Below are positions 39,641 through 55,568 of a stretch of 64,000 bases of DNA, piece by piece. Source of the stretch: Adhaeribacter aerolatus (GTDB lineage Bacteria > Bacteroidota > Bacteroidia > Cytophagales > Hymenobacteraceae). The notes under the pieces were generated by a model. That model was not told the DNA's origin. It saw only the letters and a program-made list of their open reading frames with translations, and did no database searches. The stretch covers positions 1 through 64,000 of the forward strand of contig NZ_BJYS01000007.1 in the NCBI RefSeq assembly GCF_007991635.1, given 5' to 3'. How positions within the stretch are numbered: the stretch's first letter is position 1; every line of letters starts with the position of its first letter. The translations under genes were made by a program, and so were the position numbers.

Positions 39641-40210
39641 ATGAATAAATTTGAGCAACAACGAGAACAGAGTAAACAGCAAATAGAAGAAGCAGCCTTA
39701 ATCCTGTTTGCGGAGCACGGATTTGAGAAGACTTCTATCCGAATGATTGCCCAAAGAGTTAATATTTCTTTGGGCTTACTTTATAATTATTATGCTGGTA
39801 AAGATGAATTACTGAAAGAAATATTCCGGCGAGGCAGGCAGGATGCTCAGGTTGCCCTTACCCCTGACGGCGATAAAAACCGGTATAATGATATTGAAAA
39901 TCATATCCGGTTAACCTTTAAAATACTAAAGCAGAACCGTTCTTATTGGAAGCTGCTGCACGGTATCCGGATGCAATCGCCGGTTATTCAGAAACTGGAA
40001 GCAGAGATGAAAGCTGAAACAGAATTCATGCAGAAAAGAATAGAAGAAAATTTAATAAATGGCGGCATTCCTTTTCCGGGTTTGGAAGCGAAGCTTTTAT
40101 TTGCCACCCTGGATGGTATTACCAACCACTACCTGCTCTACGAGAACTACCCCGTTGATGATATAGCCAATTTGCTTATACTGAAATATCGGGAACAAAT
40201 CCGAAAGTAA
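39641..40210 (+). CDS. Orphan TetR-family regulator
   Basis: 189 residues. TetR HTH in residues 10-57 (LFAEHGFEKTSIRMIAQRVNISLGLLYNYYAGKDELLKEI). The ligand domain ends around 185. The nearest genes are convergent (hisIE) or 640 bp away (holin-like), so the regulated gene is not next door. The palindrome TGAACAAACGTTCA just before the start suggests autorepression. AcrR/FadR-like targets are possible but not shown. Confidence 0.85.
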   Translation: MNKFEQQREQSKQQIEEAALILFAEHGFEKTSIRMIAQRVNISLGLLYNYYAGKDELLKEIFRRGRQDAQVALTPDGDKNRYNDIENHIRLTFKILKQNRSYWKLLHGIRMQSPVIQKLEAEMKAETEFMQKRIEENLINGGIPFPGLEAKLLFATLDGITNHYLLYENYPVDDIANLLILKYREQIRK

Positions 40211-40307
40211 TGATACTAAAAAACAATTTAATGTGTGCTTTGGCCAAGGTTTCTGCTGGTGTAATGCCGGTGATGGTCTCCTGCCGGAATCTACCCTTTA
40301 GTTATTA

Positions 40308-40351
40308 TTAATTAGAAATATTAAGACAGTTAATTAGAAATATTAAGACAG
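40308..40351. repeat. Perfect 22-bp tandem duplication
   Basis: Two adjacent copies of a 22-bp unit beginning TTAATTAGAAATATTAAG (40308-40329, 40330-40351) in the spacer after the TetR gene. Confidence 0.9.
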
Positions 40352-40402
40352 CAGCAATACGAAAGTAATGTTAATTCAAATTATTTAACATAATGATTAC
40401 AC

Positions 40403-40453
40403 TTACAGAAAACAAAAGACTTAAAATACTTTAAGTCCTTTTGTTTTCTGTAA
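40403..40453. terminator. Bidirectional terminator between tetR and hisIE
   Basis: A 22-bp stem with one bulged C: TTACAGAAAACAAAAGACTT pairs with its complement (40431-40453) around a 6-nt loop. It lies between the convergent TetR and histidine operon genes and would end both. Confidence 0.8.
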
Positions 40454-40522
40454 CAGGTATATAAGAATTTACAACTGAAATGGTCTGAGGCAAAGCTAAA
40501 AATATAGGAAACCTATATACTT

Positions 40523-41137
40523 CTATCTTTTGTGTCTTTCTTCCAGCACCTGAATCACGTCGCTGAGTTTCATGTCGGAACCCGCTAACAGCACTAACAG
40601 GTGATAAAGCAAATCGGCGGCTTCGCCTTTCATGGGTTCCCGGTTACCAGCCACGGCATCTATCACTACTTCTACGGCTTCCTCTCCTACTTTCTGGGCC
40701 ATTTTCTGGATGCCGCGCTGGAAAAGCGAATTAGTATAAGAGTTTTCGGAAGGATTATTTTTGCGATCCTGGATTAAATTTTCGAGGTATTCCAGGAACA
40801 AAGCGCTGCCATTATGCGTGGGATAAACTTCTTTTTGATCGGTGAAACAGGTAGCCGAGCCGGTATGGCAAACCGGACCAACCGGGTTAACTTTAATCAA
40901 CAAGGTATCGGCATCGCAATCCTGCTGGATGCTAACCACATTTAAAAAGTTACCGGAGGTCTCGCCTTTGGTCCAGAGTCGATTTTTAGTCCGGGAAAAG
41001 AAAGTAACTTTTTTTTCCTGCTGGGTCTGCGCTAAAGCTTCCTCGTTCATGTAGCCCAGCATTAATACCTGCCCGGTGGCGTGGTCCTGAATAATGGCCG
41101 GGATTAATCCGCCCGTTTTTTGAAAGTCTAAATTCAT
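40523..41137 (-). CDS. hisIE: Bifunctional phosphoribosyl-AMP cyclohydrolase / phosphoribosyl-ATP pyrophosphatase
   Basis: 204 residues: HisI domain (about 1-105; [40 protein letters not shown] with zinc Cys) fused to HisE (about 110-204; [34 protein letters not shown]). Catalyses steps 2 and 3 of histidine synthesis. Last gene of the his operon, overlapping hisF by 4 nt. Confidence 0.95.
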
Positions 41138-41889
41138 AAGCGTATGGGTAAATTCTGGGCAGCCAGGTAGTTTTTTAAATAAGGTATTTCTATTTCGCCG
41201 AAGTGAAAGATACTGGCCGCTAAAGCCGCGTCAGCCTGGGCTTCCTGAAATACTTCGGAGAAATGTTCGACGGAGCCAGCGCCACCAGAGGCAATAACCG
41301 GAATACTGACTTCTTTGGAAACTGCGCCGGTGATATCTAAGGCAAAACCATTTTTTGTACCATCGTTGCTCATCGAGGTTAATAATATTTCGCCGGCCCC
41401 TAAATCTGTAACCATTTTGGCCCACTCTACGGTTTCGTAAGGGGTTTCGAGGGTACCGGCCCGGCTAAATACTTTCCAGCCCTGAGGAGTGAATTTGGTA
41501 TCGATGGCTACGGTTATACATTGGCTGCCGAAGCGCTTGGCCAGCTCATTTACCAGTTCCGGAGTTTTAATGGCCGCTGAATTAACGGAAACCTTATCGG
41601 CTCCTTCCAGCAACAATAATTCCACATCGGCCACACAACTAATGCCACCGCCTACGGTAAACGGAATATCTAAATGGCGGGCAATATCCCTAACCAGCGC
41701 GGCAAAGGTTTTACGCTCTTCGTTCGTAGCGGTTATGTCCAGGAAAACCAGTTCATCAGCTCCCTGGCGGGCGTATTCGGCGCCGAGTTCAACCGGGTCG
41801 CCAGCATCCCGGATGTTCTCGAACATAATGCCTTTAACCGTACGCCCGTTTTTAATATCGAGGCACGGAATAATGCGTTTGGTTAACAT
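41134..41889 (-). CDS. hisF: Imidazole glycerol phosphate synthase, cyclase subunit
   Basis: 251-residue TIM barrel. It joins PRFAR with ammonia from HisH to give imidazole glycerol phosphate and [16 protein letters not shown] holds the catalytic Asp; a second Asp is in [25 protein letters not shown] and [11 protein letters not shown] are the phosphate-binding and late loop motifs. It overlaps hisA by 7 nt and hisIE by 4 nt. Confidence 0.96.
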
Positions 41890-42605
41890 ACAAATCGTTT
41901 TAATTCGAGCAGGGTAATGGTGCCCTCGTAAATAGCTTTGCCAATAATGGCCCCGAACAGACCGGCTGCTTCTAATTCTTCTAAGTCCTGGATGGTGGTT
42001 ACACCGCCACTAGCAATAATCTGGGCTTCCGGGTAGGTTTTTACCAGGTTGGTGTAAGTTTCGGTAGCGGGGCCTTGCAGTTTGCCGTCTTTACTAACAT
42101 CGGTACAAATAAAAGTACTGGCGCCTTTTGCTAAGTAATCCGAAACAAAATTAGCTACCGTAATATCTGATTGATCAGCCCAGGCATTGATGGAGATGGT
42201 GTTGTCCCGGAAATCGGCCCCAATAAATATTCTTTCCTCACCGTATTTTGCCAGCCACTGGGTAACCGTTTCGGGTTCGCGTACGGCAATACTGCCAGCA
42301 GTAATGTGCCCGGCTCCCGCCGAAAAGGCCTGTTCTATCGCTTCTTGTGATTGAATGCCACCGCCAAAATCAATATCCAGGTTGGTTGCTTTAGCAATAG
42401 CTTCGAGCACGGCTAAGTTTACTGGTTTGCGGGCGCGGGCACCATCCAAATCTACTAAGTGCAGGTGCGTAATACCTTCGCCTTCAAAACGCTTGGCTAC
42501 TTCTACCGGGTTGCTGTCGTAGGTTTTTTGCTGACTGAAATCGCCTTCGGTGAGGCGCACACATTGGCCGTTAATAATATCAATAGCCGGAATAATTCGC
42601 ATCAT
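41883..42605 (-). CDS. hisA: ProFAR isomerase (HisA)
   Basis: 240-residue TIM barrel, homologous to HisF. It isomerises ProFAR to [22 protein letters not shown] contains the catalytic Asp, HLVDLDGA and DFGGGIQS the barrel motifs, [15 protein letters not shown] the second catalytic Asp loop, and [11 protein letters not shown] the phosphate site. It overlaps hisH by 4 nt. Confidence 0.96.
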
Positions 42606-43183
42606 AAATCTAAAAAATTCTGCAGGATTTTAGTGCCGGTAGGGCCGCTCTTTTCGGCATGAAACTGCACGGCGTAAAAATTCTGGTACTGTACGGCCGC
42701 ACTAAAAGGTTGGGGGTAATCGGCGGCTGCTATGGTGTGTTCGCTCTGGGGCACGTGGTAGCTGTGTACGAAATAAACGTAATCCTGCTCGTTCAGCCCT
42801 TTCATTAAGGGGCTTTTTAAGTTATAAATATTGTTCCAGCCCATGTGCGGCACCTTCAGATCGGTTACAAACCGTTTTACGTCTAAAGGAATAATATTCA
42901 GCATGGGCGTATCATTTTCTTCACTGTGGCGGCACATGAGTTGCATTCCCAGGCAAATACCCAGAAAGGGTTGTGTCAGTGCTGGAATAATTTTATCCAG
43001 CCCATCGGCTGTTAGTTGGCGCATAGCCGAATTTGCTTCGCCTTCCCCCGGAAAGATAACCTTATCAGCTTGCTGAATAGTTTCGCGGTCCTCGGTTAAG
43101 GTAGCCTGCACGCCTAAGCGCTCCAGCGCAAACCGCACCGACTGCACATTCCCGCCTTTATAATCAATAATAACTACGTTCAT
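42602..43183 (-). CDS. hisH: Imidazole glycerol phosphate synthase, glutaminase subunit
   Basis: 193-residue class I glutamine amidotransferase. It feeds ammonia to HisF. The nucleophile is in FLGICLGMQLM (Cys), with the His and Glu in AVQFHAEKSGPTG. IDYKGGNVQSV and VIFPGEGEA are the usual N-terminal motifs. A 71-nt gap separates it from hisB, the largest in the operon, and contains a short imperfect repeat (43194-43221). Confidence 0.96.
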   Translation of the reverse strand: MNVVIIDYKGGNVQSVRFALERLGVQATLTEDRETIQQADKVIFPGEGEANSAMRQLTADGLDKIIPALTQPFLGICLGMQLMCRHSEENDTPMLNIIPLDVKRFVTDLKVPHMGWNNIYNLKSPLMKGLNEQDYVYFVHSYHVPQSEHTIAAADYPQPFSAAVQYQNFYAVQFHAEKSGPTGTKILQNFLDL

Positions 43184-43193
43184 ATTTAAGTGG

Positions 43194-43221
43194 TTAGTAG
43201 TTAGTTATTAGTAGTTAGTTT
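43194..43221. repeat. 14-bp imperfect tandem repeat in the hisB-hisH gap
   Basis: TTAGTAGTTAGTTA is followed directly by TTAGTAGTTAGTTT. It lies in the only sizeable gap of the operon. No hairpin or promoter motif is evident. Confidence 0.7.
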
Positions 43222-43254
43222 TAATATTTCCCTGTGCAATACCTAATTACTAAA

Positions 43255-44358
43255 TTATAAAACTCCTTTGGTACTGGGCAAAGCCATATTGGTAACATCG
43301 CGAGCAACGGCCATTTTAATAGATTTGGCAACGGCTTTAAAGATGGCTTCAATTTTATGGTGTTCGTTGGCGCCTTCGGCTTTTACGTTCAGGTTGCACT
43401 TGGCCGCATCACTAAACGATTTGAAGAAATGGTAAAACATTTCGGTGGGCATATCGCCTACTTTTTCGCGTTTAAACTCGGCTTCCCAAACCAGCCAAGG
43501 GCGGCCGGAAAAATCGATTGCTACTTGCGCCAGTACATCATCCATTGGCAATAAATAACCGTAACGGCTGATGCCCATTTTATTTCCTAAAGCTTGGCTG
43601 AAGGCTTCGCCTAAAGCTATAGCGGTGTCTTCAATGGTATGGTGCTCGTCGATGTGTAAATCACCTTGTACCTGAATGGCCATATCGGCGCCAGAATGTT
43701 TACTGAGCTGCTCCAGCATATGGTCGAAGAAACCCAAACCCGTATGAATTTGCATGTGGCCTTTGCCATCCAGGTTCAGGCTTACTTGTATTTTGGTTTC
43801 ATTCGTGTTCCGGACAACCGAAGCGGTTCGATCGGGCAGCCTTAGGAATTTATAAATTTCGTCCCAGTTGGTAGTGGTTATGGTTGCACGTTCATTCGGC
43901 GCAGTTGCCAATAAAATACTTTTAGCGCCCAGGTTTTCGGCTAATTGAATATCGGTCAGGCGATCGCCGATGACATAAGAGTTGGCTAAATCGTAAGTCT
44001 CGGCAAAATATTCATTTAACATGCCAATACCCGGTTTGCGCGAAGGCAAGTTCTCGTGCTCGAAACTCCGGTCGATGTGAATATTGCTGAATGTAATGCC
44101 CTCCCCTTCCAGGATTTCCAACATTTTGTTTTGGTAAGGCCAGAATGTTTCTTCGGGGTAGGAAGTAGTGCCTAACCCGTCCTGGTTCGTAACCATTACA
44201 AAATCGTAATCCAGTTCGGTTTGTATTTTATATAAGTTCCGGATAACACCGGGGTAAAAACTAAATTTCTCGAAAGAATCTACCTGAAAATCGGTAGGTG
44301 GCTCTAGCAGGATGGTGCCATCCCGGTCGATAAACAAAACCTTCTTTTTGCTAATCAT
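43255..44358 (-). CDS. hisB: Bifunctional histidinol-phosphatase / imidazoleglycerol-phosphate dehydratase
   Basis: 367 residues. An N-terminal HAD phosphatase (about 1-165; [14 protein letters not shown] nucleophile Asp, [23 protein letters not shown]) is fused to IGPD (about 175-367; [33 protein letters not shown] manganese ligands, [12 protein letters not shown]). It catalyses the seventh and last-but-two steps. The fused form is usual in Bacteroidota. 7 nt separate it from hisC. Confidence 0.96.
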
Positions 44359-44365
44359 GCTTTAT

Positions 44366-45430
44366 TTAACTAAATCTTTTTTCGGCCAACGCTTTTAAAG
44401 CTTCTACCAACGCTTTGTTCTCGGAGTCGGTGCCGACAGACACCCGCAAACAATTATAACAATTAAGCTGATTGGTACGGTTACGCACCACAATGCCCTG
44501 CTGCAACAAATAATCATAGATTTTATTTGCATCGGTTACCTGAATGAGGAGGAAGTTGGCATCCGACGGATAAACTTTCTGCACCACCGGCACTTGTTTT
44601 AGAGCTTGCTGCAAATATTCCCGGCCCTGGTTTATTTCGGCAATCATTTCGGGCAGTTGGTCAGCGCGCTGCAAAGCATCCAGCGCAATGAGTTGGGTGG
44701 CTTCGCTGATATTGTAAGGCGGCTTAATTTTGTTCAGGAAATTGATAATTTCGGGTGAGGCAAAAGCCATTCCTAACCGCACCGCCGCCATACCCCAGGC
44801 CTTGGAAAAAGTTTGCAGCACCACTAAGTTCGGAAACTCGGCCAAGCGTTTGGACCAGCTTTCGGCATCCGCAAAATCAATATAAGCTTCGTCTACCACC
44901 ACCAAGCCGGCAAAATTCCGCAGAATATATTCGATGCTTTTGGGGTTTATCAAATTACCTGTGGGGTTATTCGGCGAGCATAGAAATATGATTTTGGTGT
45001 TGGCGTGAATCTGCCCCTGCAGTTTACTGATTTGCACCTGAAAATTCTCGTCGAGGCTGATGTGCCGGAGAAAAACATCGTTCAGGTTGGCCGCCACATC
45101 GTACATGCCGTAAGTAGGGCCAAACGTTAATATTTCGTCGTGACCCGGTTTGCAAACCAGCCGGATTAATAAATCAATGGCTTCGTCGCTGCCATTGCCC
45201 AAAAACAGCTGGCTGGGGTCTACCCCTTTAATAAAGCCAATTTTTGCTTTTAGCTTCCGCTGGTAGGGGTCCGGGTAGCGGTTAAAAGACTGGTTCTGCG
45301 CCAGACTACCCAAATTATTTTCGTTGGCATCAATGTAAATGCTGGCTTCTCCTTTAAACTCATCGCGGGCCGAGGAGTAAGGTTTCATAGCCAGAATATT
45401 GGCCCGGACCAGCGTTTTTATATCAAACAT
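44366..45430 (-). CDS. hisC: Histidinol-phosphate aminotransferase
   Basis: 354 residues, class I/II PLP aminotransferase. The PLP lysine is in VLQTFSKAWGMAAVRLG; CSPNNPTGNLI and VVDEAYIDFA are other signatures, with a final arginine region NCLRVSVGT. Converts imidazole acetol phosphate to histidinol phosphate with glutamate. It follows hisD by 4 nt. Confidence 0.95.
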   Translation of the reverse strand: MFDIKTLVRANILAMKPYSSARDEFKGEASIYIDANENNLGSLAQNQSFNRYPDPYQRKLKAKIGFIKGVDPSQLFLGNGSDEAIDLLIRLVCKPGHDEILTFGPTYGMYDVAANLNDVFLRHISLDENFQVQISKLQGQIHANTKIIFLCSPNNPTGNLINPKSIEYILRNFAGLVVVDEAYIDFADAESWSKRLAEFPNLVVLQTFSKAWGMAAVRLGMAFASPEIINFLNKIKPPYNISEATQLIALDALQRADQLPEMIAEINQGREYLQQALKQVPVVQKVYPSDANFLLIQVTDANKIYDYLLQQGIVVRNRTNQLNCYNCLRVSVGTDSENKALVEALKALAEKRFS

Positions 45431-45434
45431 AATA

Positions 45435-46727
45435 TTATAAACTTTCTAATTGCTTTAACCGGATAGAAACCGCATTTTTATGGGCATCTAAACCTTCGGC
45501 GGCCGCCATCGTTTCCACGGTTTTACCTAATTGCTGCAAACCCGCAGCCGATATTTCCTGAAAGGTAATTTTTTTCACAAAACTATCCAGGGAAACGCCG
45601 CTGTAAGCCCGGGCAAATCCGTTGGTAGGTAAGGTATGGTTGGTACCGGAGGCGTAATCGCCGAACGATTCGGAACTATAATTTCCTAAAAACACGGAGC
45701 CGGCATTTGTTACTTTTTCGGCTACCTGCTCATAATTTTCCACAGCCAATATTAAATGCTCGGGCGCATATAAATCCGAAAAAGCCAGCATCTGGTCAAC
45801 ACTTGGCAGCACCACACCTAGGCTATTATTTAAGGCTTTTTGGGCCACTTCGCGACGCGGCAAAACCTTTAATTGCACTTCCAGTTCTGCTTCAACCTGA
45901 GTAACAAAATCTACTGATTCCGAAAGTAATACAACCTGTGAATCCGGGCCATGCTCGGCTTGGGAAAGCAGATCGGCCGCCACGAAAGCCGGGTTAGCTG
46001 TAGCATCTGCCATTACCAATACTTCGGAAGGCCCGGCCGGCATATCAATCGCCACGCCTAATTTTCCAACCAGTTGTTTGGCAACTGTAACGTACTGGTT
46101 ACCTGGACCAAATATTTTATGAACGGCCGGAATACTTTCAGTGCCAAATGCCAAAGCCGCAACGGCCTGGGCACCTCCTACTTTCACAATTTTAGTAATG
46201 CCTAGTAAACCGGCGGTGTACAAAATAGCCGGGTGAACAGAACCGTCTTTGGCAGGCGGAGTACATAAAATAATATTGCGGCAACCAGCTAATTGGGCTG
46301 GTATGCCCAGCATTAGTAACGTCGAAAACAACGGTGCCGAACCGCCCGGAATATATAAACCTACCTTATCAATGGGTACACTTTTCCGCCAGCAGGTCAC
46401 GCCGTTAACCGTTTCTATCCGCCGGCTGGGTTCGCGTTGTTGTTCATGAAAAGCTTTAATATTTTGGGCTGCCTTTTGGATGGCTATTTGCAATTCCGGT
46501 GCTACAAAACCAGTGGCAGCCGTAATTTCATTTTCGGTTACCCAAAAATTATTCAGCAAAACGCCGTCAAACTTTTCGGTTAATGCCCGTAAGCCGGCGT
46601 CTCCTTCGGCTTTTACCCGCTCAAAAATGGCCTGAATAGCGGGCTCAATGGCGGCTAGTTGCTGAACCGGCCGTTGTGTAAGCGCCGGCCATTCGTCGGG
46701 GGTAGGATAAAGGACTTGCCGGATCAT
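45435..46727 (-). CDS. hisD: Histidinol dehydrogenase
   Basis: 430 residues. It oxidises histidinol to histidine in two NAD steps. VGLYIPGGSAPLFSTLLMLG, GGAQAVAALAFGTESIP, MPAGPSEVLVMADATANP and AEHGPDSQVVLL (zinc-site Gln/His) are diagnostic. It overlaps hisG by 4 nt (ATGA). Confidence 0.96.
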   Translation of the reverse strand: MIRQVLYPTPDEWPALTQRPVQQLAAIEPAIQAIFERVKAEGDAGLRALTEKFDGVLLNNFWVTENEITAATGFVAPELQIAIQKAAQNIKAFHEQQREPSRRIETVNGVTCWRKSVPIDKVGLYIPGGSAPLFSTLLMLGIPAQLAGCRNIILCTPPAKDGSVHPAILYTAGLLGITKIVKVGGAQAVAALAFGTESIPAVHKIFGPGNQYVTVAKQLVGKLGVAIDMPAGPSEVLVMADATANPAFVAADLLSQAEHGPDSQVVLLSESVDFVTQVEAELEVQLKVLPRREVAQKALNNSLGVVLPSVDQMLAFSDLYAPEHLILAVENYEQVAEKVTNAGSVFLGNYSSESFGDYASGTNHTLPTNGFARAYSGVSLDSFVKKITFQEISAAGLQQLGKTVETMAAAEGLDAHKNAVSIRLKQLESL

Positions 46728-47575
46728 AAAATCATTTTTTCGATAGGCACTACCAATATACCCTGCGCGCCGGCCTCCCGTAGCTTTTCAATAATTTCCC
46801 AGAAATCGTCTTCGTTCACAACCGAATGTACCGAGCTCCAACCTTCTTCAGCCAAGGGCAGAATAGAAGGCGCTTTCATGCCGGGTAATAAAGATTTAAT
46901 AGTCGGGATGGCCTCGTTGGGCGCATTTAACAAGATATATTTCGCCTTTTGAGCCTTCCGGACCGATTGAATTCGGAATACCAATTGGTTTAGAATCCGG
47001 GTCTTCTCGGCGGTTAACTCTGTATTCGAAATCAGGACGGCTTCGGAACGGAACACGCTTTCAACTTCGCGCAGCCCATTACTGATTAAAGTACTGCCGG
47101 AACTCACAATATCGCAGATAGCATCGGCCAAGCCAATACTGGGCGCAATTTCTACGGAGCCGCTAATGGTGTGAATATTGGCAGTTACGCCCTGCTGGGT
47201 TAAATAAGCCTGTAATAAATTAGGATAGGAAGTAGCCAGGTTTTTATCCTGTAAATCCTGTATGTTGCGGTACTCAGCGGATTTTGGAACGGCGATGGAA
47301 AGCCGGCACTTGGAAAAGCCTAACTTCTGAATGGCCAGTTCCTGCTTGCCTTCTTCCACGAGTACGTTTTCACCAACAATACCAATATCGGCAACTCCGT
47401 CGGCTACATAGCCCGGAATATCGTCGTCGCGCAGAAATAAGATTTCGAGCGGAAAATTAGTGGCTTCGGTTTTTAGTTTAAGCGAACTGTTGATAAAAGA
47501 AATACCGCACTCCCGAATCAGGTTTAGAGAATCTTCACTTAACCGACCGGACTTTTGAATAGCTAAACGGATCAT
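46724..47575 (-). CDS. hisG: ATP phosphoribosyltransferase (long form)
   Basis: 283 residues. The first, feedback-regulated step of histidine synthesis. The catalytic bilobed domain shows IRLAIQKSGRLSEDS, YVADGVADIGIVGENVL and the PRPP loop DIVSSGSTLISNGL. The C-terminal ACT-like domain (about 210-283) marks the hexameric long form that binds histidine. No HisZ is needed. First structural gene of the operon, 56 nt after the leader terminator. Confidence 0.95.
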   Translation of the reverse strand: MIRLAIQKSGRLSEDSLNLIRECGISFINSSLKLKTEATNFPLEILFLRDDDIPGYVADGVADIGIVGENVLVEEGKQELAIQKLGFSKCRLSIAVPKSAEYRNIQDLQDKNLATSYPNLLQAYLTQQGVTANIHTISGSVEIAPSIGLADAICDIVSSGSTLISNGLREVESVFRSEAVLISNTELTAEKTRILNQLVFRIQSVRKAQKAKYILLNAPNEAIPTIKSLLPGMKAPSILPLAEEGWSSVHSVVNEDDFWEIIEKLREAGAQGILVVPIEKMIL

Positions 47576-47631
47576 GAATTAAAAAATATTTTCAAAGATA
47601 TAACCCAAACACGAATAATGTGCTTAAAAAT

Positions 47632-47678
47632 GAGGAATAATCCCGTATAGAGATTTTGTAAGAAATTAATTATTCCTC
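47632..47678 (-). terminator. Attenuator terminator of the his operon
   Basis: GAGGAATAAT (minus strand, 47678-47669) and ATTATTCCTC (47641-47632) form a perfect 10-bp stem with a 27-nt loop, followed by ATTTTTAAG. The 5' arm is the last two Glu codons and stop of the leader peptide, immediately after its last His codon. A ribosome stalled on the His codons would cover this arm and prevent termination. Confidence 0.75.
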
Positions 47679-47783
47679 GTGCGAAGAATGGTGATGATGA
47701 AAGCAATGCAAAAAAGTGGCTGGGCTGCCGGAAAATACTTCGGTAGAAACAGGAGAAGAAATATTTTTTTTGCTGGTGCTCAT
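47670..47783 (-). CDS. hisL: Histidine leader peptide
   Basis: A 37-residue frame, ATG 47783 to TAA 47670. It opens MSTSKKNISSPVSTEVF and ends HCFHHHHSSHEE: six His among the last 12 residues, four of them consecutive. It lies between a good TAnnTTTG promoter and hisG, with its final codons forming one arm of a terminator. This is the hallmark of a his attenuator leader. The predicted start of transcription is almost at the ATG, so translation may be near-leaderless. The family sequence is not conserved between phyla, so homology cannot be used; the symbol is by function. Confidence 0.85.
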   Translation of the reverse strand: MSTSKKNISSPVSTEVFSGSPATFLHCFHHHHSSHEE

Positions 47784-47791
47784 TATGAGTC

Positions 47792-47821
47792 CAAAGGTAA
47801 ACGGTTTTGGCGAATTACAAA
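47792..47821 (-). promoter_or_regulatory. his operon promoter
   Basis: On the minus strand TTTG (47821-47818), 18 nt, then TACCTTTG (47799-47792, exact TAnnTTTG). Transcription would begin near 47785, two to three bases before the leader ATG. Confidence 0.65.
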
Positions 47822-47978
47822 AATGCGTTAGCCTTAAGTTTGATTTTTTAGGAAAATTTACTTATAAAGGTATATTTTTGTAAAAAGATTTAATAAGTAG
47901 AACCTATCTGGCATCATTTTTCCTTTGTTACAAAACAGAGCCTGGCTGTTGTACTAATTTGTTGGCTAAAATTAAGAT

Positions 47979-48848
47979 ATGAATAAGCATTTTTTAACCA
48001 CTTTGCTCCTCTTTATATGTTGTAGCTATACATTTGCCCAAATCCGTTTGCCGCAACCCAGCCCGGAAGCGGTGGTTTCGCAAACCATTGGCTTAACCGA
48101 TATAACCGTTACTTACCATACGCCGGGTGTAAAAGGCCGACCGGTATGGGGCAAGTTGGTACCATACGGCCAAGTTTGGCGGAGCGGGGCGAACGAAGCA
48201 ACGGTAATTTCCTTTTCTGATGATGTTAAAATAAACGGACAGGACTTGCCGGCGGGTACTTATTCCTTTTTTACCTTACCCGAATCCGAAACCAACTGGT
48301 TCGTAATATTTAACCGCAATACCGAATTATGGGGCACCGAGGGCTACAAGCCGGAAGAAGATGTGCTGCGGGTGCCGGTAAAACCAGAAGCGGCCCCTTT
48401 CCACGAATCGCTGCTTTATTATTTTTCGGATATGAAAGCCACGGAGGGGCGCTTGAACCTGGTGTGGGAAAAGCTTAAAATTCCGTTTACCATTACAGTT
48501 GAAGTTTTTAACAAAACGGTAGCCACTTTAAAAGAAGATTTAGCTAGTGTAAAAGCCGATGACTGGAACAGCTATGCCCAAGCTGCCCATTTTCTGATTC
48601 AGAACAACAAGCAACACGAACTGGCCTTGCAGTGGATTAATAAATCGATTAAGATAAAAGAGAACTTTTATAACAACTGGCTGAAAGCCCAGCTCCTGGC
48701 CCAAAAAGACGAATACGAAGAAGCCATTAACCTGACGAAAAAGGCTTTAAAATTAGGCAGCAAAGACGATAAAACCTTTACGCCATTAACTCACGAAATG
48801 GAGCGCTCTTTAGACGTGTGGAAAGTTAAAATGCACAGCCGGGATTAA
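47979..48848 (+). CDS. DUF2911 protein with C-terminal TPR-like helices
   Basis: 289 residues. Signal peptide about 1-20 (ending TFAQ). DUF2911 covers about 25-165: PSPEAVVSQTIGLTDITVTYHTPGVKGR, VPYGQVWRSGANEATVISF and LPAGTYSFFTLP are the most conserved stretches. The rest (about 185-285) consists of helical pairs like TPR motifs (HELALQWINKSIKIKENFYN, YEEAINLTKKALKLG). Exported, function unknown. Convergent with the TonB-dependent receptor gene, with a 4-nt overlap of their ends. Confidence 0.85.
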   Translation: MNKHFLTTLLLFICCSYTFAQIRLPQPSPEAVVSQTIGLTDITVTYHTPGVKGRPVWGKLVPYGQVWRSGANEATVISFSDDVKINGQDLPAGTYSFFTLPESETNWFVIFNRNTELWGTEGYKPEEDVLRVPVKPEAAPFHESLLYYFSDMKATEGRLNLVWEKLKIPFTITVEVFNKTVATLKEDLASVKADDWNSYAQAAHFLIQNNKQHELALQWINKSIKIKENFYNNWLKAQLLAQKDEYEEAINLTKKALKLGSKDDKTFTPLTHEMERSLDVWKVKMHSRD

Positions 48849-51286
48849 AAACGGGCGATAAAGCGCACGTTGAGCAACCTTGACGATAAATAATTAGGAA
48901 CGGCGTAAGTAATTTCATTTACGTCCTGCACGTAATTGTACGAAACCACATTATTAGTAGCGAGTAAATTTAAAACCTCCAGGGCGAGCCACAAACTCTC
49001 CAAGCCAAATTTATCTTCGTTCTCGTGCCGCAGGGTAATTAATTTAGAAAAACCAATATCTACCCGTTTGTAGCCCGGCATATTATACTGGTTGCGAATG
49101 CCTTCAATACCGGGCGGACTAAACGGCAGACCGGTACCATACACCAGGTTCAGGTTCATTTTAACGGTGGGATCGTTGGGTAACTGGTCCTGGAAAAATA
49201 TGCCTAACGTAATCCGCTGATCAGTTGGTCGCCGGATATAGCCTAGTGGCGCCCGTCCGATTATTTTCCGGGTTTTTGCGTCGTAAATATTCGTGGAATC
49301 GCCGGTAATATCTTCGCGCGCCGACAATATACCCAAACTAAACCACGACTCAGCACCCTTAATAAATTCGCCATTAATACGGGTATCGAATCCAACAGCA
49401 TAAGCCTTGGCATTGTTTTTCGCATAATACCGCAGCCGGACATTATCTACCTCGTAAGGGACTACGTTGGTCAGATATTTATAATAAGCTTCGGTAACTA
49501 GCTTAAAGTCGCGGTTCCAGGCTTTAAACCGGTACTCGTTGCCCGCAATAAAATGGACGGAACGTTGCGCTTTCAGGTTCTGGTTCAGGTTACCGGCCTG
49601 GTCGCGGAGTTCGCGGTAAAATGGTGGTTGGTAGTAAACGCCGGCCGCCACTTTAAACGAAAGCCGATCGTTTGTAGGCGCCACAAAAGCATACTGGATG
49701 CGCGGGCTAAAGGTTAATTCTTTGTTAAAACTCCAGTAGTTAGCCCTTACGCCATACGTCAGGGTTTCGCCACCGTCCCAGCGCAACGTTTGCTGGGCAT
49801 ATCCGCTGAAGCGATTGGAATTGAGTAAAATATCTGTCTTCAGTGAATTTTTAAGAAAAACAAAGTCAGCTGAATCGACAAACCGGTATTCATCCAATAT
49901 ATCCTGTATCCGTTCCTGGCTCCATTTAATGCCCCATTGTACCTGGTTGCGGTTACCTAATTCCCAAACGTGGCGGGTTTCCAGGGCAAAAATACGGGCC
50001 GTTAAATTATTACGCGCGTAGTTGTATTCGGTACCTGCATCGCGCTCCTGTACGCATTTGTTAAAGTCTTTGGAGTTGGGGTCCAGATCGATATCGCAAA
50101 AGTTATAACCGGCTTCAATGTTTCGCAACTCCCGCTCCCGCGATAGCAAAGAAGAAATAATAAAATGAGCTGTGTAGGCATCGTTAAACCGGTGCTGTAA
50201 ATTCAGGCCGCCCTGGTAAGCATCATACTCCATCCGCTCCCGCCCTTCGTAAGCTACCCGCAGTCGCACGTACTGGTTTACGGTACCAAAAGTAGTTTCG
50301 CGTAAGCTGGGAATTACGAGGTATTTATTCCGGGCTAAACTGCCCACGAAACCTAATGTCGTACGTTCCGGATTTTCCTTTTTACCTAAACTCAGGTTAA
50401 AGTAACCCTGTATGTCACCGAATTTAGGCTGATAATTACCACTGGTTTGCAAACTTTTATTAAAGAGTAACTGGGCGTTTTTATAACGGGTACCTATCAG
50501 GTAAGTAAATCGTTTATTACGGGTAATACCTTCCAAGTGCGCAGCTCCACCCAGCAAACCACCCGTAACCGAACCGGCAAAGTGTGTGGGTATTTTGTAA
50601 TCAATATTTAAAACGGAGGAAAGTTTGTCACCATATTTCGGTTGCCAACCGCCGGCCGAAAATTCAATATTACCAACCAGGTCGGGGTTAATAAAGCTTA
50701 AGCCTTCCTGTTGGGCGTTCGAAACCAAAAACGGCCGGTAGATCTCAATGCCATTTACATACACGAGGTTTTCGTCGTAATTACCGCCCCGCACCGAATA
50801 AGTAGAAGATAATTCGTTGTTGCTGATTACGCCGGGCAGCGTTACCAATATTTTATTAAACTCGCCGAAAGGCGTGGGTAGTTGTTTGGTAAGCCGGGGC
50901 TCCAGGCGGGTAATGCTTACCTCCTCGCGCGTGTTATTGCGTTTAAGCCCGGTAATTGTAACGGTTTGTAGGGCAGTGGTATCATTTGTCAGCACCACTG
51001 TTATTTCGCGTTGTTCTCCTGTTTTCAGGCGTAAAGCCACCTGCTGCTCCCGATAGTTTATATACTTTATAATGAGCTGAATATCCTCTTCTGCCGGAAC
51101 AGATAATTTAAATACGCCCTGGGCATTAGTGAGGGTTCCGGTGTTGGTACCTTTTAGGCCTACCGAAGCCGAAAACAGGGGCGTTTGGGATTGCGATACG
51201 ACCTTACCGGTTACTGTAGCTTGCTGGGCAAATACCCTTAAAGAAAATAAAAAAAGCAAACAACAGGTAAATAGTTTCGGGTGCAT
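48845..51286 (-). CDS. TonB-dependent receptor (outer membrane)
   Basis: 813 residues: signal peptide (about 1-20, LRVFAQQ), a carboxypeptidase-regulatory-like beta-sandwich (about 23-105; VTGKVVSQSQTPLFSASVGLKGT), plug domain (about 125-235; IEIYRPFLVSNAQQEGLSFI in its middle) and a 22-strand barrel ending in F. No SusD partner follows, so it is more likely an iron/cofactor or peptide importer than a glycan importer. Gene order then gives rpe 4 nt upstream, possibly the same transcript. Confidence 0.85.
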   Translation of the reverse strand: MHPKLFTCCLLFLFSLRVFAQQATVTGKVVSQSQTPLFSASVGLKGTNTGTLTNAQGVFKLSVPAEEDIQLIIKYINYREQQVALRLKTGEQREITVVLTNDTTALQTVTITGLKRNNTREEVSITRLEPRLTKQLPTPFGEFNKILVTLPGVISNNELSSTYSVRGGNYDENLVYVNGIEIYRPFLVSNAQQEGLSFINPDLVGNIEFSAGGWQPKYGDKLSSVLNIDYKIPTHFAGSVTGGLLGGAAHLEGITRNKRFTYLIGTRYKNAQLLFNKSLQTSGNYQPKFGDIQGYFNLSLGKKENPERTTLGFVGSLARNKYLVIPSLRETTFGTVNQYVRLRVAYEGRERMEYDAYQGGLNLQHRFNDAYTAHFIISSLLSRERELRNIEAGYNFCDIDLDPNSKDFNKCVQERDAGTEYNYARNNLTARIFALETRHVWELGNRNQVQWGIKWSQERIQDILDEYRFVDSADFVFLKNSLKTDILLNSNRFSGYAQQTLRWDGGETLTYGVRANYWSFNKELTFSPRIQYAFVAPTNDRLSFKVAAGVYYQPPFYRELRDQAGNLNQNLKAQRSVHFIAGNEYRFKAWNRDFKLVTEAYYKYLTNVVPYEVDNVRLRYYAKNNAKAYAVGFDTRINGEFIKGAESWFSLGILSAREDITGDSTNIYDAKTRKIIGRAPLGYIRRPTDQRITLGIFFQDQLPNDPTVKMNLNLVYGTGLPFSPPGIEGIRNQYNMPGYKRVDIGFSKLITLRHENEDKFGLESLWLALEVLNLLATNNVVSYNYVQDVNEITYAVPNYLSSRLLNVRFIARF

Positions 51287-51290
51287 TCAA

Positions 51291-51950
51291 TTAAACGTTA
51301 ACTGAATTTTTTAAAGCCGCAATGGTTTTTAAAGGTTCCGGCGATGAAAACACGAAATTACCGGCTACCAATACATTGGCCCCTTGTTCTATTAACGCCA
51401 CCGAATTTTGTTGGTTTACGCCCCCATCTATTTCAATTAAAGCTTTAGAGCCACTCTCCCGGATTAATTCTTTTGCCTCTTGTACTTTTTGGAAAGTACG
51501 CTGAATAAATTTCTGGCCACCAAACCCGGGGTTTACCGACATGATGAGCACCAGATCTAAATCCTGAATAATTTCAGATAAAACCTGCACTGGTGTGTGG
51601 GGGTTTAATGCAACGCCGGCTTTGGCGCCGGAATCTTTTATTTGCTGAACCGTGCGGTGCAGGTGCGGACAAGCCTCGTAGTGCACGGTAATATTTCCGG
51701 CTCCGGCAGCCCGGAACTGCTCTACATAACGGCCAGGTTCCTGAATCATTAAATGCACGTCCAGCACCTTGGTCGCGTATTTTTTAACTGCCTCCAGTAC
51801 CGGAAATCCGAAAGAAATATTGGGCACAAACACCCCATCCATTACATCAAAGTGAATCCATTCGGCTTCGCTTTGGTTAAGCATGTTTACTTCGGATTGG
51901 AGGTTAGCAAAATTGGCGGCTAAAAGAGATGGCGCAATAATCGTGTTCAC
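51291..51950 (-). CDS. rpe: Ribulose-phosphate 3-epimerase
   Basis: 219-residue TIM barrel. It interconverts ribulose-5-P and xylulose-5-P in the pentose phosphate pathway. IAPSLLAANFANLQSE, WIHFDVMDGVFVPNISFG, LDVHLMIQEP, MSVNPGFGGQKFI and IEIDGGVNQQN are all present, including the metal-binding Asp and His residues. It directly precedes the TonB-dependent receptor gene on the minus strand. Confidence 0.96.
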   Translation of the reverse strand: MNTIIAPSLLAANFANLQSEVNMLNQSEAEWIHFDVMDGVFVPNISFGFPVLEAVKKYATKVLDVHLMIQEPGRYVEQFRAAGAGNITVHYEACPHLHRTVQQIKDSGAKAGVALNPHTPVQVLSEIIQDLDLVLIMSVNPGFGGQKFIQRTFQKVQEAKELIRESGSKALIEIDGGVNQQNSVALIEQGANVLVAGNFVFSSPEPLKTIAALKNSVNV

Positions 51951-52099
51951 GGGCTTGTTGTTGGTTAGGCTATTTACCAGCTTTGTTTGCTGATTCCGGT
52001 ACGTTGCTTTAATAATTTATAAATATTAATAGTAGACTTAATTAAGGTTTATTAAAAGTTTAGCCTTTGACTGGCAAACCCTTGCTTAACCCTTTATTT

Positions 52100-53770
52100 T
52101 TAAATTTTTAAGAATTTAAAAATCTTCGGACCATCATTGCCATTGATCACACAATTGTATATGCCCGGACTTAGCGAGGAAATATCAACCACTACATTCC
52201 GACTAACCGGTGTCGTGGCAATAATTTCTTTTACAACTTTTTGGGCAACGGTATTGTAAATGGTTACGTTTATCCGCTGGTTTATAAACTCCTTACTCAT
52301 CCGAATCTGCAGTTGGTTATTCTGCACCGGGTTCGGGAAAATTACAGACTTATTTTCTTCTTCCTGCGCTAGTTTATGGGCCTGGGAAAAATTAGGTATA
52401 CCGTAACCTATAAGGAAATCAGGAATACTAGCCTGTGAAGCGGTTCTTTCGAGGTATTTTATCACCTGCATATTGGTAAGCGTAGGATTGGCCTGCCAGA
52501 AACCTACGGCTAGTCCACATAATATTGGACCCGAAAATGAAGTACCGTTAGCCCGCACAACCTGGCCGCCCGGTGTAACTACCGCAGCCAATAAACCTTG
52601 CGCTACCAAATTAGGTTTAATCCGGCCATCAGCCGTAGGACCAACCGAACTAAAAGCAGCCCGCCGCCCTAGGGAATCAACCGCCCCTACACTCAGCGCC
52701 GAATCGGCATCGGCCGGGGCACTAATGTACCGCCAGGGCTTGTTGCCTTCGTTGCCGGCACTGTTTACCACCAGCATACCGGTTGCGGCGGCATAATCTG
52801 CCGCCCGGGTTACAATAGCCAGGCTGCCGTTTAAATCGTTGTAAGAATAGCTGCGCGAAGGTGCATCAAAAGTGGTATAACCCAACGAAGAGTTAATTAC
52901 ATCTACACCGGCACTATCGGCAAATTCCGCGGCCAATAACCAGTTTACTTCTTCAATGTTGTGCTCGCCGCGTGAATCTTCGGTTATAAACAAATAATAA
53001 TTGGCCTTGTACGCATTGCCCACGTAGGTTCCGGGCTGATAGGCGGCTAACGTAGATAATACATTGGTGCCATGCGTGTCCTTTTCAAACACATCTTCGT
53101 TTTTATCTACAAAATCAAAAGTAGCTTTTACCCGGCTTTCCTCGAACAAATGGGCAAATGCCGGTACCCGGTGAACCCCGCTAAAGCCCCCGTCGAAAAC
53201 TGCCACGTGCATGCCCTCGCCCCGAAAGCCTGCTTCGTGCATTTGCAACACCCCCAGCATATTGGCCTGGTTGTAAGCCGCCCCGTATGTCTGCCGGTCG
53301 GTTTTAAGCCGGCGATTATTGGCCGGGGCCGGTTTAGGCGAGGCACTGCCATTCCGGATAGTAACGGTGCTGGTATTGCGCCGGCTCAACGTTTGTCCGT
53401 TCTTCACAAAAGGCAGCTTTACCAACTCGGTATAAACCGAAGAGTCGCAATAAACTACGGCCGCATTAAACCACCGGGAAGCATACAATACCTCTGCACC
53501 TTTGCTTTTTAGGCCGGCAGTGTACAAAGGATTGACCGGCAGGTCGCGCGCGGTAATATTAATTTGCTGCTTGTGCCGTCGGCTGATGGCTCTATCAGAT
53601 AAATATTGCTGTGGGTTATCTACCGAAAAAGGCGAATTAGCTTTATCCCGAAAATAAATGAGGTGTTTACGGGCCTGGCCGCCTGATTGCGCAGCTACTG
53701 GTAAGCATAAGCCTAAACAGTATATTAAAAAGAATATTATTGTAGCTGTTTCACCTTTATGAGCCGTCAT
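52100..53770 (-). CDS. Secreted subtilisin-like peptidase with T9SS sorting tail
   Basis: 556 residues. Signal segment about 8-27. The S8 triad is D193 (VAVFDGGFSG), H233 (DTHGTNVLS) and S411 (ANGTSFSGP), with oxyanion N340 (NSAGNEG). The region before the domain (30-160) resembles an inhibitor prosequence. The last 80 residues (VIFPNPVQNNQLQI ... GIYNCVI ... KIFKFLKI) are a type A T9SS C-terminal domain, which directs export through the type IX system. Extracellular or surface protease. It overlaps nothing; the lipoprotein gene lies 2 nt upstream. Confidence 0.9.
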   Translation of the reverse strand: MTAHKGETATIIFFLIYCLGLCLPVAAQSGGQARKHLIYFRDKANSPFSVDNPQQYLSDRAISRRHKQQINITARDLPVNPLYTAGLKSKGAEVLYASRWFNAAVVYCDSSVYTELVKLPFVKNGQTLSRRNTSTVTIRNGSASPKPAPANNRRLKTDRQTYGAAYNQANMLGVLQMHEAGFRGEGMHVAVFDGGFSGVHRVPAFAHLFEESRVKATFDFVDKNEDVFEKDTHGTNVLSTLAAYQPGTYVGNAYKANYYLFITEDSRGEHNIEEVNWLLAAEFADSAGVDVINSSLGYTTFDAPSRSYSYNDLNGSLAIVTRAADYAAATGMLVVNSAGNEGNKPWRYISAPADADSALSVGAVDSLGRRAAFSSVGPTADGRIKPNLVAQGLLAAVVTPGGQVVRANGTSFSGPILCGLAVGFWQANPTLTNMQVIKYLERTASQASIPDFLIGYGIPNFSQAHKLAQEEENKSVIFPNPVQNNQLQIRMSKEFINQRINVTIYNTVAQKVVKEIIATTPVSRNVVVDISSLSPGIYNCVINGNDGPKIFKFLKI

Positions 53771-53772
53771 TA

Positions 53773-54459
53773 TTATTCCGCTGCGTGAAAAGTATTTAAT
53801 TTAAAAACCCGCCGAAGCCCTCTTGCTACTTTGTTTTTGTCGGACACACCCTGAGTCTGCACATACTCATAAACTGTAAAGTTTTTATAAATCAACCCAA
53901 TATTATAAGCATAAACTTCGGTCCGGTCATCCAACATTACTTCATTGGGTTCACCCTGAACCACAGTTACGGTTGAGTCATACGTAATATTATGCAACAC
54001 AAACGGCTGGTTAACCCGGGCGTAGCTGAAATCATCCGCATCCAGAATATTAAAGGCGTTGGTATCCCATTGTTTACCCTCCTGTACCGGAAACAACAAT
54101 TTTATAGTTTTAAAATTATTATGGGTTCTCAGGACATCCGATAAGGATTTATTTACCAGAACCAATGAATCATTACCCCAGTTAGCATCTGCCCTGTTTT
54201 TCCGGGAAAGGACCAGCTGATAGGTTAATTCATCCGCGGCATTCCGGAAAACTGTATCTACACGTTCCCGCACCTGGTATTTAGTGGAGTCGTATTTGTT
54301 GTTAGACACTCGGGTTTCCACTACATCATAAATCCAGTAGTTGCCAATTTTAATTGGGTAATACTCCCGACCTATTTCGGCATCGGTAGTGGTTACTTCT
54401 TCCGAGCACCGGGCGAAGCAAAATATTACAGACAACCCCAAAAGCAGATTTCTAAGCAT
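53773..54459 (-). CDS. Hypothetical lipoprotein
   Basis: 228 residues. An N-terminal lipoprotein signal ends CFARC (lipobox near Cys 18). The body is beta-rich with repeated EYYPIKIGNYWIYDVVE-like stretches common in secreted Bacteroidota lipoproteins; no family name is certain. It sits between mnmA (5 nt upstream) and the T9SS subtilase (2 nt downstream), so it is probably co-transcribed with both. Confidence 0.75.
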   Translation of the reverse strand: MLRNLLLGLSVIFCFARCSEEVTTTDAEIGREYYPIKIGNYWIYDVVETRVSNNKYDSTKYQVRERVDTVFRNAADELTYQLVLSRKNRADANWGNDSLVLVNKSLSDVLRTHNNFKTIKLLFPVQEGKQWDTNAFNILDADDFSYARVNQPFVLHNITYDSTVTVVQGEPNEVMLDDRTEVYAYNIGLIYKNFTVYEYVQTQGVSDKNKVARGLRRVFKLNTFHAAE

Positions 54460-54464
54460 ATATT

Positions 54465-55568
54465 CTATTCGTTGTAGCTGGCTTCTATCCAGCCGCCACC
54501 TATTACGTCGTTGCCTTCGTAAAAAACAGCCGCCTGGCCGGGCGCAATAGCATGTACTCCTTCCTGGAAACGCACTACCATTTTGCCTTCTACCTGCTCA
54601 ATTATAGCAGGCGTACCGGCATCATTATAACGTACTTTTGTAACAGTTTGGGTAGGCCGACCCCACAAATCAGCGTATTTGCTCATATTCAGTTTGCCTA
54701 CGGTCATGCCATTTTTAGCTAAATCGTTGTAATTTCCTAAAATTACCCGGTTTTTATCTTTCTCGATGCGGGTTACGTAAGCGGGGAAGCCCAGCGCCAC
54801 CCCTAATCCTTTCCGCTGGCCAATGGTATAAAACGGATAACCTTCGTGTTTTCCTACTACGGTGCCGTCTTCCATTACAAACTCCCCACCGGCTACTTCG
54901 GCTTCGAGGCCATTTACCCGGCGCTTCAGAAAACCGCGGTAGTCGTTATCCGGAATGAAACAAATTTCGTAAGACTCAGGCTTTTGCACCAATTCGTTGA
55001 AACCACGTTCCAGCGCCATTTCCCGGATTTGGGTTTTTCTTAAGTTACCCAACGGGAATAGTGTGCGGCTCAGGCTTTGCTGCGAAATGCCCCACAAGGC
55101 ATACGATTGATCTTTATGCTCATCCAGACCTTTGGAAATAACAAAGCGGCCGTCTTCTTCTCTTAAATTGGCGTAATGTCCCGTGGCAATAAAATCACAG
55201 TCTAACTGGTCGGCCCGGCGCAACAGGGCGTCCCATTTAATGTGGGTATTACACAAAACGCACGGATTAGGCGTGCGACCGGCAATATATTCATCGGTAA
55301 AATGGTTAATAACAAAATCACCAAACTCTTCCCGGATGTCAATTATATAATGCGGAAAACCCAGGTTAACGGCAATATTCCGGGCATCGTTGATGGAATC
55401 GAGGCTGCAGCAACCGGTTTCTTTGCGGTTACCACCCGATGAAGCATAATCCCAGGTTTTCATCGTCATGCCTACAACCTCGTAGCCTTGCTCGTGCAGC
55501 ATAACAGCCGCCACCGACGAATCTATACCGCCGCTCATGGCTACCAATACCCTCCCTAACTTACTCAT
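54465..55568 (-). CDS. mnmA: tRNA-specific 2-thiouridylase
   Basis: 367 residues. It thiolates U34 of tRNAs for Lys, Glu and Gln. The PP-loop is VLVAMSGGIDSSVAAVML; catalytic cysteines lie in TPNPCVLCN and SYEICFIPD. DEHKDQSYALWGI and PFYTIGQRKGLGV are further MnmA signatures. Full-length. First gene of a run with a lipoprotein and a T9SS protease. Confidence 0.96.
   Translation of the reverse strand: MSKLGRVLVAMSGGIDSSVAAVMLHEQGYEVVGMTMKTWDYASSGGNRKETGCCSLDSINDARNIAVNLGFPHYIIDIREEFGDFVINHFTDEYIAGRTPNPCVLCNTHIKWDALLRRADQLDCDFIATGHYANLREEDGRFVISKGLDEHKDQSYALWGISQQSLSRTLFPLGNLRKTQIREMALERGFNELVQKPESYEICFIPDNDYRGFLKRRVNGLEAEVAGGEFVMEDGTVVGKHEGYPFYTIGQRKGLGVALGFPAYVTRIEKDKNRVILGNYNDLAKNGMTVGKLNMSKYADLWGRPTQTVTKVRYNDAGTPAIIEQVEGKMVVRFQEGVHAIAPGQAAVFYEGNDVIGGGWIEASYNE

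Follow-up and report, generated by a model that had tools for sequence, protein, structure and literature searches.

The his operon of Adhaeribacter aerolatus is preceded by a short leader frame ending in a cluster of histidine codons, which almost certainly represents a his attenuator of a kind already known, although in an unusual arrangement. Our analysis of the window (the whole stretch studied, i.e., positions 1 to 64,000 of contig NZ_BJYS01000007.1) points, with somewhat better than even confidence, to a ribosome-mediated version of this device, wherein one RNA strand (strand b) is common to an upstream hairpin (H1) and an intrinsic terminator, and starvation for histidine would result in read-through into hisG. 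The main interest of the locus lies in a family-wide his leader RNA that is outside the existing catalogues, and less so in the direct occlusion of a terminator by the ribosome.

The leader ORF (MSTSKKNISSPVSTEVFSGSPATFLHCFHHHHSSHEE, followed by the stop codon; 47,670–47,783, minus strand) has 37 codons, with histidines at codons 26, 29–32 and 35, i.e., six among its last 12 residues. The sequence reads CAT CAT CAC CAT across the His29–32 run (47,688–47,699, minus), and the codon of His35 (CAC; 47,681–47,679, minus) directly adjoins strand b. The stop codon lies 94 nt ahead of the ATG of hisG (47,575). A re-reading of the window thus confirmed what the first-pass annotation had recorded of the frame, its six histidines, its distance from hisG and the contact between the last His codon and a hairpin arm. 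The first gene of the operon, hisG (46,724–47,575, minus), is identified by TIGR00070/TIGR03455 and by the neighbouring his genes, with the order after the leader being hisG-hisD-hisC-hisB-hisH-hisA. Hence, the leader is directly upstream of the his operon and rich in codons for the operon's own amino acid. On its other side is a divergent gene coding for a DUF2911 protein (47,979–48,848); since this gene is on the plus strand, we rejected the possibility that the hairpin described below is its terminator. In a six-frame scan of the whole window, a single one of the 479 ATG-started frames of 15–80 codons, namely the leader itself, displayed at least five His in 10 codons.

For comparison we assembled hisG loci at three taxonomic levels (150 genomes for the family, 118 for the order and 128 for the phylum), along with 80 named contigs and 120 further stretches retrieved by place; the window genome belongs to a genus with Adhaeribacter (named relatives L031 and L048). 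A frame with at least four His in 10 codons was present in all 119 distinct hisG upstream regions of Hymenobacteraceae, and the antisense control never exceeded three His per 10 codons in 177 distinct regions from the family and order. These counts, together with the uniqueness of the frame among the 479 in the window, lead us to reject a chance frame, and the 119 of 119, taken with the operon order, support the original identification of a his leader peptide acting as an attenuator. CAT and CAC interchange at all His positions but the last, indicating that the regulatory codons are conserved as codons. In most of the family the leader ends at HHSS-stop, its C-terminus taking the form HHxHHSS-stop in Pontibacter and Rufibacter, HHHxHGHHSS(F)-stop in most Hymenobacter and HHSSxGE(E)-stop in others. 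We give hardly any credence to a non-regulatory reading, with the ORF either coding for a small functional protein that is rich in His (metal-binding) or having arisen by chance: metal proteins also have His-rich stretches, and the other His4-Ser-Ser match in the genome marks the beginning of a P-type ATPase; however, the frame lies upstream of hisG in the whole family, its peptide matched no Pfam family, its N-terminus is divergent among relatives, and the codon choice at its end is dictated by RNA pairing. The ATPase (L262, contig C57; MDHSHHHHSSN...) was the only match to the His4-Ser-Ser DNA pattern elsewhere in the genome; it illustrates that this motif alone does not make a leader, and, with it being the sole other match, the idea that further genes stand under the same leader was rejected.

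The end of the frame also specifies a hairpin. In the window, strand a (AUUCUUC; 47,683–47,689, minus), which overlaps His32-Ser-Ser and combines coding and structural constraint in the family, would pair with the GAGGAAU of strand b to form H1 (AUUCUUC-GCAC-GAGGAAU; 47,689–47,672, minus), a structure that the first-pass annotation overlooked. In nearly all family loci the last His codon, together with the Ser codons and the stop, gives an equivalent H1, with at least five pairs in 118 of 121 loci. In Pontibacter it takes the form AUUCCUC-GUAA-GAGGAAU, with the stop codon in the loop, and in many Hymenobacter AUUCCUCU-UUCU-AGAGGAAU. The H1 region folds well below shuffled sequences (mean z of -2.4 to -5.1 by genus). 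Within the window alone, the seven pairs between strand a and the terminator arm do not stand out significantly from shuffles (p 0.14), and the support for them comes from conservation. With this hairpin competing for strand b and conserved family-wide, the earlier suggestion that no separate antiterminator is needed finds no support.

Covariation in H1 is sparse because its sequence is nearly invariant: no pair varies in the RNAalifold consensus for Pontibacter, and there are few double changes. More telling is the use of synonymous codons. Among 116 H1-bearing leaders, 115 use CAT for the last His, the codon that contributes its A and U to pairs of H1, as against a CAT:CAC ratio of 351:144 at their other His positions (Fisher p 2.5e-14). 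For the first Ser, TCC is used in 113 of the 116, with Ser elsewhere in these leaders being mostly TCT or AGC. Given this codon choice at the last His and first Ser, selection acts on the leader peptide and the RNA together, and for H1 we consider codon choice a stronger argument than covariation. Separately, two Bacteroidota MAGs (L074 and L098) have leaders ending in HHSK-stop or HHS-stop with a hairpin CACTCC..GGAGTG, in which the third position of the His codon takes part in a C-G pair instead of a U-A pair, as a structure would demand. In a subgroup of the Hymenobacter-like genus g5 within the family (L118, L119, L120, L125, L239, L240 and L258–L260), the leaders end, for example, in QHHHHHL-stop or HHRHHHLWEAGLCAGC-stop and are without H1.

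The alternative partner of strand b is downstream. Strand b (GAGGAATAAT / GAGGAAUAAU, i.e., GAGGAAU-AAU; 47,669–47,678, minus) includes the stop codon and serves twice, as the 3' arm in H1 and as the 5' arm in the putative terminator, whose own 3' arm is strand c (ATTATTCCTC / AUUAUUCCUC; 47,632–47,641, minus). The two can form 10 Watson-Crick pairs and one U.G pair around a loop of about 25–27 nt, followed by the tract AUUUUU (ATTTTT in the DNA; 47,626–47,631, minus), in agreement with the first description of the final codons as the 5' arm of a perfect 10-bp hairpin (47,678–47,669 with 47,641–47,632) that precedes a U-run. A stem of at least 10 pairs with a loop of at most 30 and at least five T in the next 6 nt arose in one of 3000 dinucleotide shuffles of the leader region, by criteria chosen after the sequence had been seen. 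The b:c hairpin was not called in a generic terminator scan (loops of 3–8) because its loop is long and just three of its pairs are G-C; its predicted energy is -9.9 kcal/mol, with H1 at -4.9 kcal/mol. Immediately beyond the tract is a small hairpin (AAGCAC-AUUAUUC-GUGUUU; 47,607–47,625, minus) that is kept as far as A. aquaticus (AGCAC versus AACAC against GUGUU).

Conservation of the terminator is narrower than that of the leader. Across four Adhaeribacter, b:c keeps 7–10 pairs: the sisters L002 and L003 retain the stem along with UUUUUU, and in A. aquaticus (L048) seven pairs are left, with no U-run. One pair varies, being A-U in the window and L002, G.U in L003 and G-C in L048, and this single double change is not above shuffles (242 of 500). 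Among the 109 family loci with H1, a stem plus five T between H1 and hisG was found only in L001–L003 and, marginally, in one Pontibacter (L026). Hence, the U-run terminator is specific to the window's three-species subclade, and the His run and H1 constitute the conserved device. The alignment of hisG upstream regions thus bears out the first-pass annotation for the His run throughout the family and for the hairpin with its U-run in the two closest sisters, but not for a U-run terminator outside this subclade: between leader and hisG, an intrinsic terminator is present in the window and its two sisters, where it is weak by composition, and absent in most of the family.

What follows H1 in the rest of the family is a different arrangement. 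A YATAYNG motif follows H1 in 94 of 109 family loci, and in Pontibacter, Rufibacter and Hymenobacter it is succeeded by a C-run, a G-run and a further C-run, without a U-run. These observations, and the contrast between a universal His run with H1 and a terminator confined to three sisters and a marginal fourth locus, speak for a conserved device that acts by another route, be it a pause of RNA polymerase at H1, termination by Rho or translational control of hisG, with the U-run terminator being late or minor. We nevertheless regard this as unlikely, since folds downstream of H1 are only modestly better than shuffled ones (mean z of -0.8 to -1.7), no pairing was found that links H1 to the downstream C/G-run segments, and a plausible terminator is present in the window. 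A covarying structure 3' of H1 in Pontibacter and Rufibacter was rejected: RNAalifold returned H1 alone in the combined and Pontibacter sets and one additional short stem in Rufibacter. By eye, single sequences show a candidate three-strand C/G/C switch. The loci of Pontibacter, Hymenobacter and Rufibacter (L008–L060, L061–L073 and L201–L257) might be grouped as a candidate new RNA family. Four other Adhaeribacter (L004–L007), as read by eye, present yet another picture: a longer stem just after the last His codons, differing in sequence between species and enclosing the stop, is followed by AGGAGGAAACUCCU and, further on, by an AGCUGUU..AACAGCU stem, with a U-run in some only; CUCCUG could also pair with CAGGA near the hisG start.

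Transcription of the leader would begin from a promoter of the Bacteroidetes type. The consensus TTTG/TAnnTTTG, with 4–5 nt from the -7 box to the start site as measured in F. johnsoniae (PMC6847099), has a candidate -7 element in the TAnnTTTG box TACCTTTG (47,792–47,799, minus) and a candidate -33 element in a TTTG 18 nt before it (47,818–47,821, minus). The F. johnsoniae spacing, when applied to TACCTTTG, predicts a start site at 47,787/47,786 and consequently a 5' UTR of only about 3–4 nt. Of 150 His-leader loci, 109 have a TAnnTTTG box at most 25 nt ahead of the leader start, and near matches such as TTTACTTTG occur in many of the other loci. A further perfect TAnnTTTG box, TATCTTTG (47,600–47,593, minus), is situated between the leader and hisG in a block, CACA..ATTCGTGTTTG.GTT.TATCTTTGA, that is conserved down to A. 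aquaticus, more so than the terminator. It could be a second promoter bypassing the attenuator, in which case the hisG 5' UTR would be 12–13 nt, and no clear -33 element was seen for it.

The position of the stop codon within strand b raises the issue of how a translating ribosome would affect the terminator. We folded the transcript up to the U-run at equilibrium with a ribosome at each codon (12-nt footprint from the A site). With His 26 or His 29–32 in the A site, the modelled terminator has a probability of 0.97–0.99; from codon 33 through the stop this falls from 0.99 to about 0.3. Leader translation would accordingly overlap the terminator, and a ribosome at any of these last positions would block it. 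For all ribosome positions up to codon 32 the terminator wins over H1, which can fold fully only while the ribosome has not moved beyond codon 26 and disappears from the model once the ribosome is past codons 26–29. We use these values for the geometry of occlusion only: antiterminators work by folding first, and equilibrium folding therefore favours the terminator in most ribosome positions of classical leaders too, so that it cannot decide a kinetic competition.

This geometry bears on the proposal of the first-pass annotation that a ribosome stalled at a His codon covers the 5' arm of the terminator, with no antiterminator being involved. In its favour, His35 abuts the arm, the model shows a block from codon 33 to the stop, and ribosomes near a terminator are known to repress it in pyrBI (PMC5021804) and in synthetic constructs (PMC4824070), the latter having shown repression by a ribosome at a stop codon within a few bases of the terminator, and its relief at distances of more than about 27 nt. 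Against it, stalls at His 26 and 29–32 leave the arm free and the terminator intact; His35 is missing in L003, although this sister keeps the terminator; most leaders of the family end at HHSS-stop; and every ribosome that reaches the stop codon would occlude equally, so that starvation is not discriminated. As blocking starts only at codon 33, any ribosome completing the leader would occlude the arm, and a stall would do so at just one of the six His codons, a non-conserved one. On balance, we judge direct occlusion as the sole mechanism to be unlikely. The same features could alternatively be read as a pyrBI-type coupling sensor of reverse sign, with a close ribosome covering the terminator to allow read-through and a lagging one permitting termination. 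The overlap of the terminator arm with the stop codon, the intact terminator in the model upon upstream stalls and the established repression by ribosomes of terminators near stop codons (PMC4824070) are compatible with it, but such a sensor would turn the his operon off when histidine is short, against both biosynthetic logic and the classical his leaders of the phylum, and we deem it quite improbable.

We thus favour the attenuator with strand b shared between H1 and the terminator, for which we advance the following mechanism. Transcription from the Bacteroidetes promoter would give the leader next to no 5' UTR, and translation through the His run late in the frame would report the supply of charged His-tRNA. 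Strand b could pair either upstream with strand a, as H1, or downstream with strand c, as the intrinsic terminator before U5. Under a shortage of His-tRNA, a ribosome waiting at codon 26, the first for His, would allow H1 to fold before strand c has been made, and a ribosome slowed past codon 26 would sit on strand b itself; by either route the terminator would be hindered and hisG read. When histidine is plentiful, the ribosome would melt H1, finish and leave, upon which the more stable b:c pairing would form. To our knowledge, Bacteroidota initiate translation without Shine-Dalgarno sequences, and we take the coupling of transcription and translation in them to be little studied. The classical antiterminator anatomy of relatives at hisG supports a histidine sensor. 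On the other side, the window's H1 is weak, and strand c could displace it; the stop is inside the terminator arm, as against 21–49 nt upstream of it in the clear classical relatives; a finishing ribosome would itself repress the terminator (cf. PMC4824070); and the U-run is found in three related species only.

Considering the family as a whole, we tentatively entertain, at less than even confidence, the possibility that Hymenobacteraceae possess a non-classical his leader, in which a ribosome-gated hairpin formed by the last His, two Ser and the stop is followed by YATAYNG and the C/G-runs and controls hisG, in most species with no intrinsic terminator; the subclade of the window would then have recruited a strand of this hairpin into a terminator. 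The Hymenobacteraceae element can be delineated as a candidate RNA family with a strict overlap of coding and structural constraint. It raises the question of how, in species with no U-run terminator, a ribosome starved for histidine would be registered.

The papers we found on leader-peptide control of his operons mainly concern Proteobacteria, Firmicutes and Actinobacteria, and a single transcriptome study offers a hint from Flavobacterium: for F. psychrophilum it reported strong clues that leader-peptide attenuation operates ahead of amino-acid operons, along with a conserved structured 5' element upstream of hisG in this species and other Flavobacteriaceae (PMC9723704), and the general idea is therefore already known. 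In our survey, several Cytophagales outside the family and all Flavobacteriales-like loci examined have short leaders, e.g., MKNTQNIHGHHHHANHMYGRSLF and MFINQLHHHHFHYCSQAMC, and 22 of 27 newly fetched loci of the phylum survey display a strong U-run terminator downstream of a short His-rich frame. In the classical phylum loci, 21–49 nt separate the stop from the beginning of the terminator's 5' arm. In many phylum loci a separate strand, 23–35 nt after the first His, pairs with this arm, such as TGGCAAGTCT with AGGCTTGCCA in L091 and TCAAGCG with CGTTTGA in L276; shuffle p values for this antiterminator strand are 0.00–0.10 where it is present, and several loci are without it. These hisG leaders of Flavobacteriales and other Cytophagales have the textbook anatomy of an attenuator. 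Two Bacteroidales loci (L085 and L086) have a very short leader ending in MIHHHSI-stop, again followed by a strong U-run terminator.

Known RNA families do not account for the element. Rfam His_leader gave no match up to E = 1 in positions 40,000–55,000 of the window, nor up to E = 0.1 in nine relatives; a known Rfam leader was rejected at these thresholds. Bacteroid-trp (RF01692), which going by its name we take to be a trp leader, was likewise rejected, with its covariance model matching none of eight genomes of the genus and matching a control genome. It has been described as a candidate cis-regulatory RNA motif of Bacteroidetes (PMC2864571).

Among known systems, the his attenuator of Proteobacteria (Rfam His_leader; E. 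coli and Salmonella) shares with the window a His-run ORF before hisG, an alternative pairing and a terminator. The window differs in that its leader closes with the His run, the stop being inside the terminator arm, and in that its competing hairpin uses the upstream His-Ser codons. With pyrBI of E. coli it has in common that the position of the ribosome can directly prevent the terminator, which the ORF overlaps or abuts. However, pyrBI senses how translation is coupled to the speed of RNA polymerase, not a run of codons for one amino acid, and the second hairpin of the window, H1, shares the terminator arm, at odds with the pyrBI-type pattern of no competing hairpin. Closest by phylum and gene are the His-run leader ORFs of Flavobacteriales (L272–L284) and the structured hisG element of Flavobacterium (PMC9723704). 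The former have a separate antiterminator strand, located about 23–29 nt after the first His codon, and a terminator arm at least 21 nt after the stop, in contrast to the window, which is without such spacing. Our comparison thereby places leader-peptide control of hisG across Bacteroidota, in a classical form in Flavobacteriales and other families and through a different, strongly conserved RNA element in Hymenobacteraceae.
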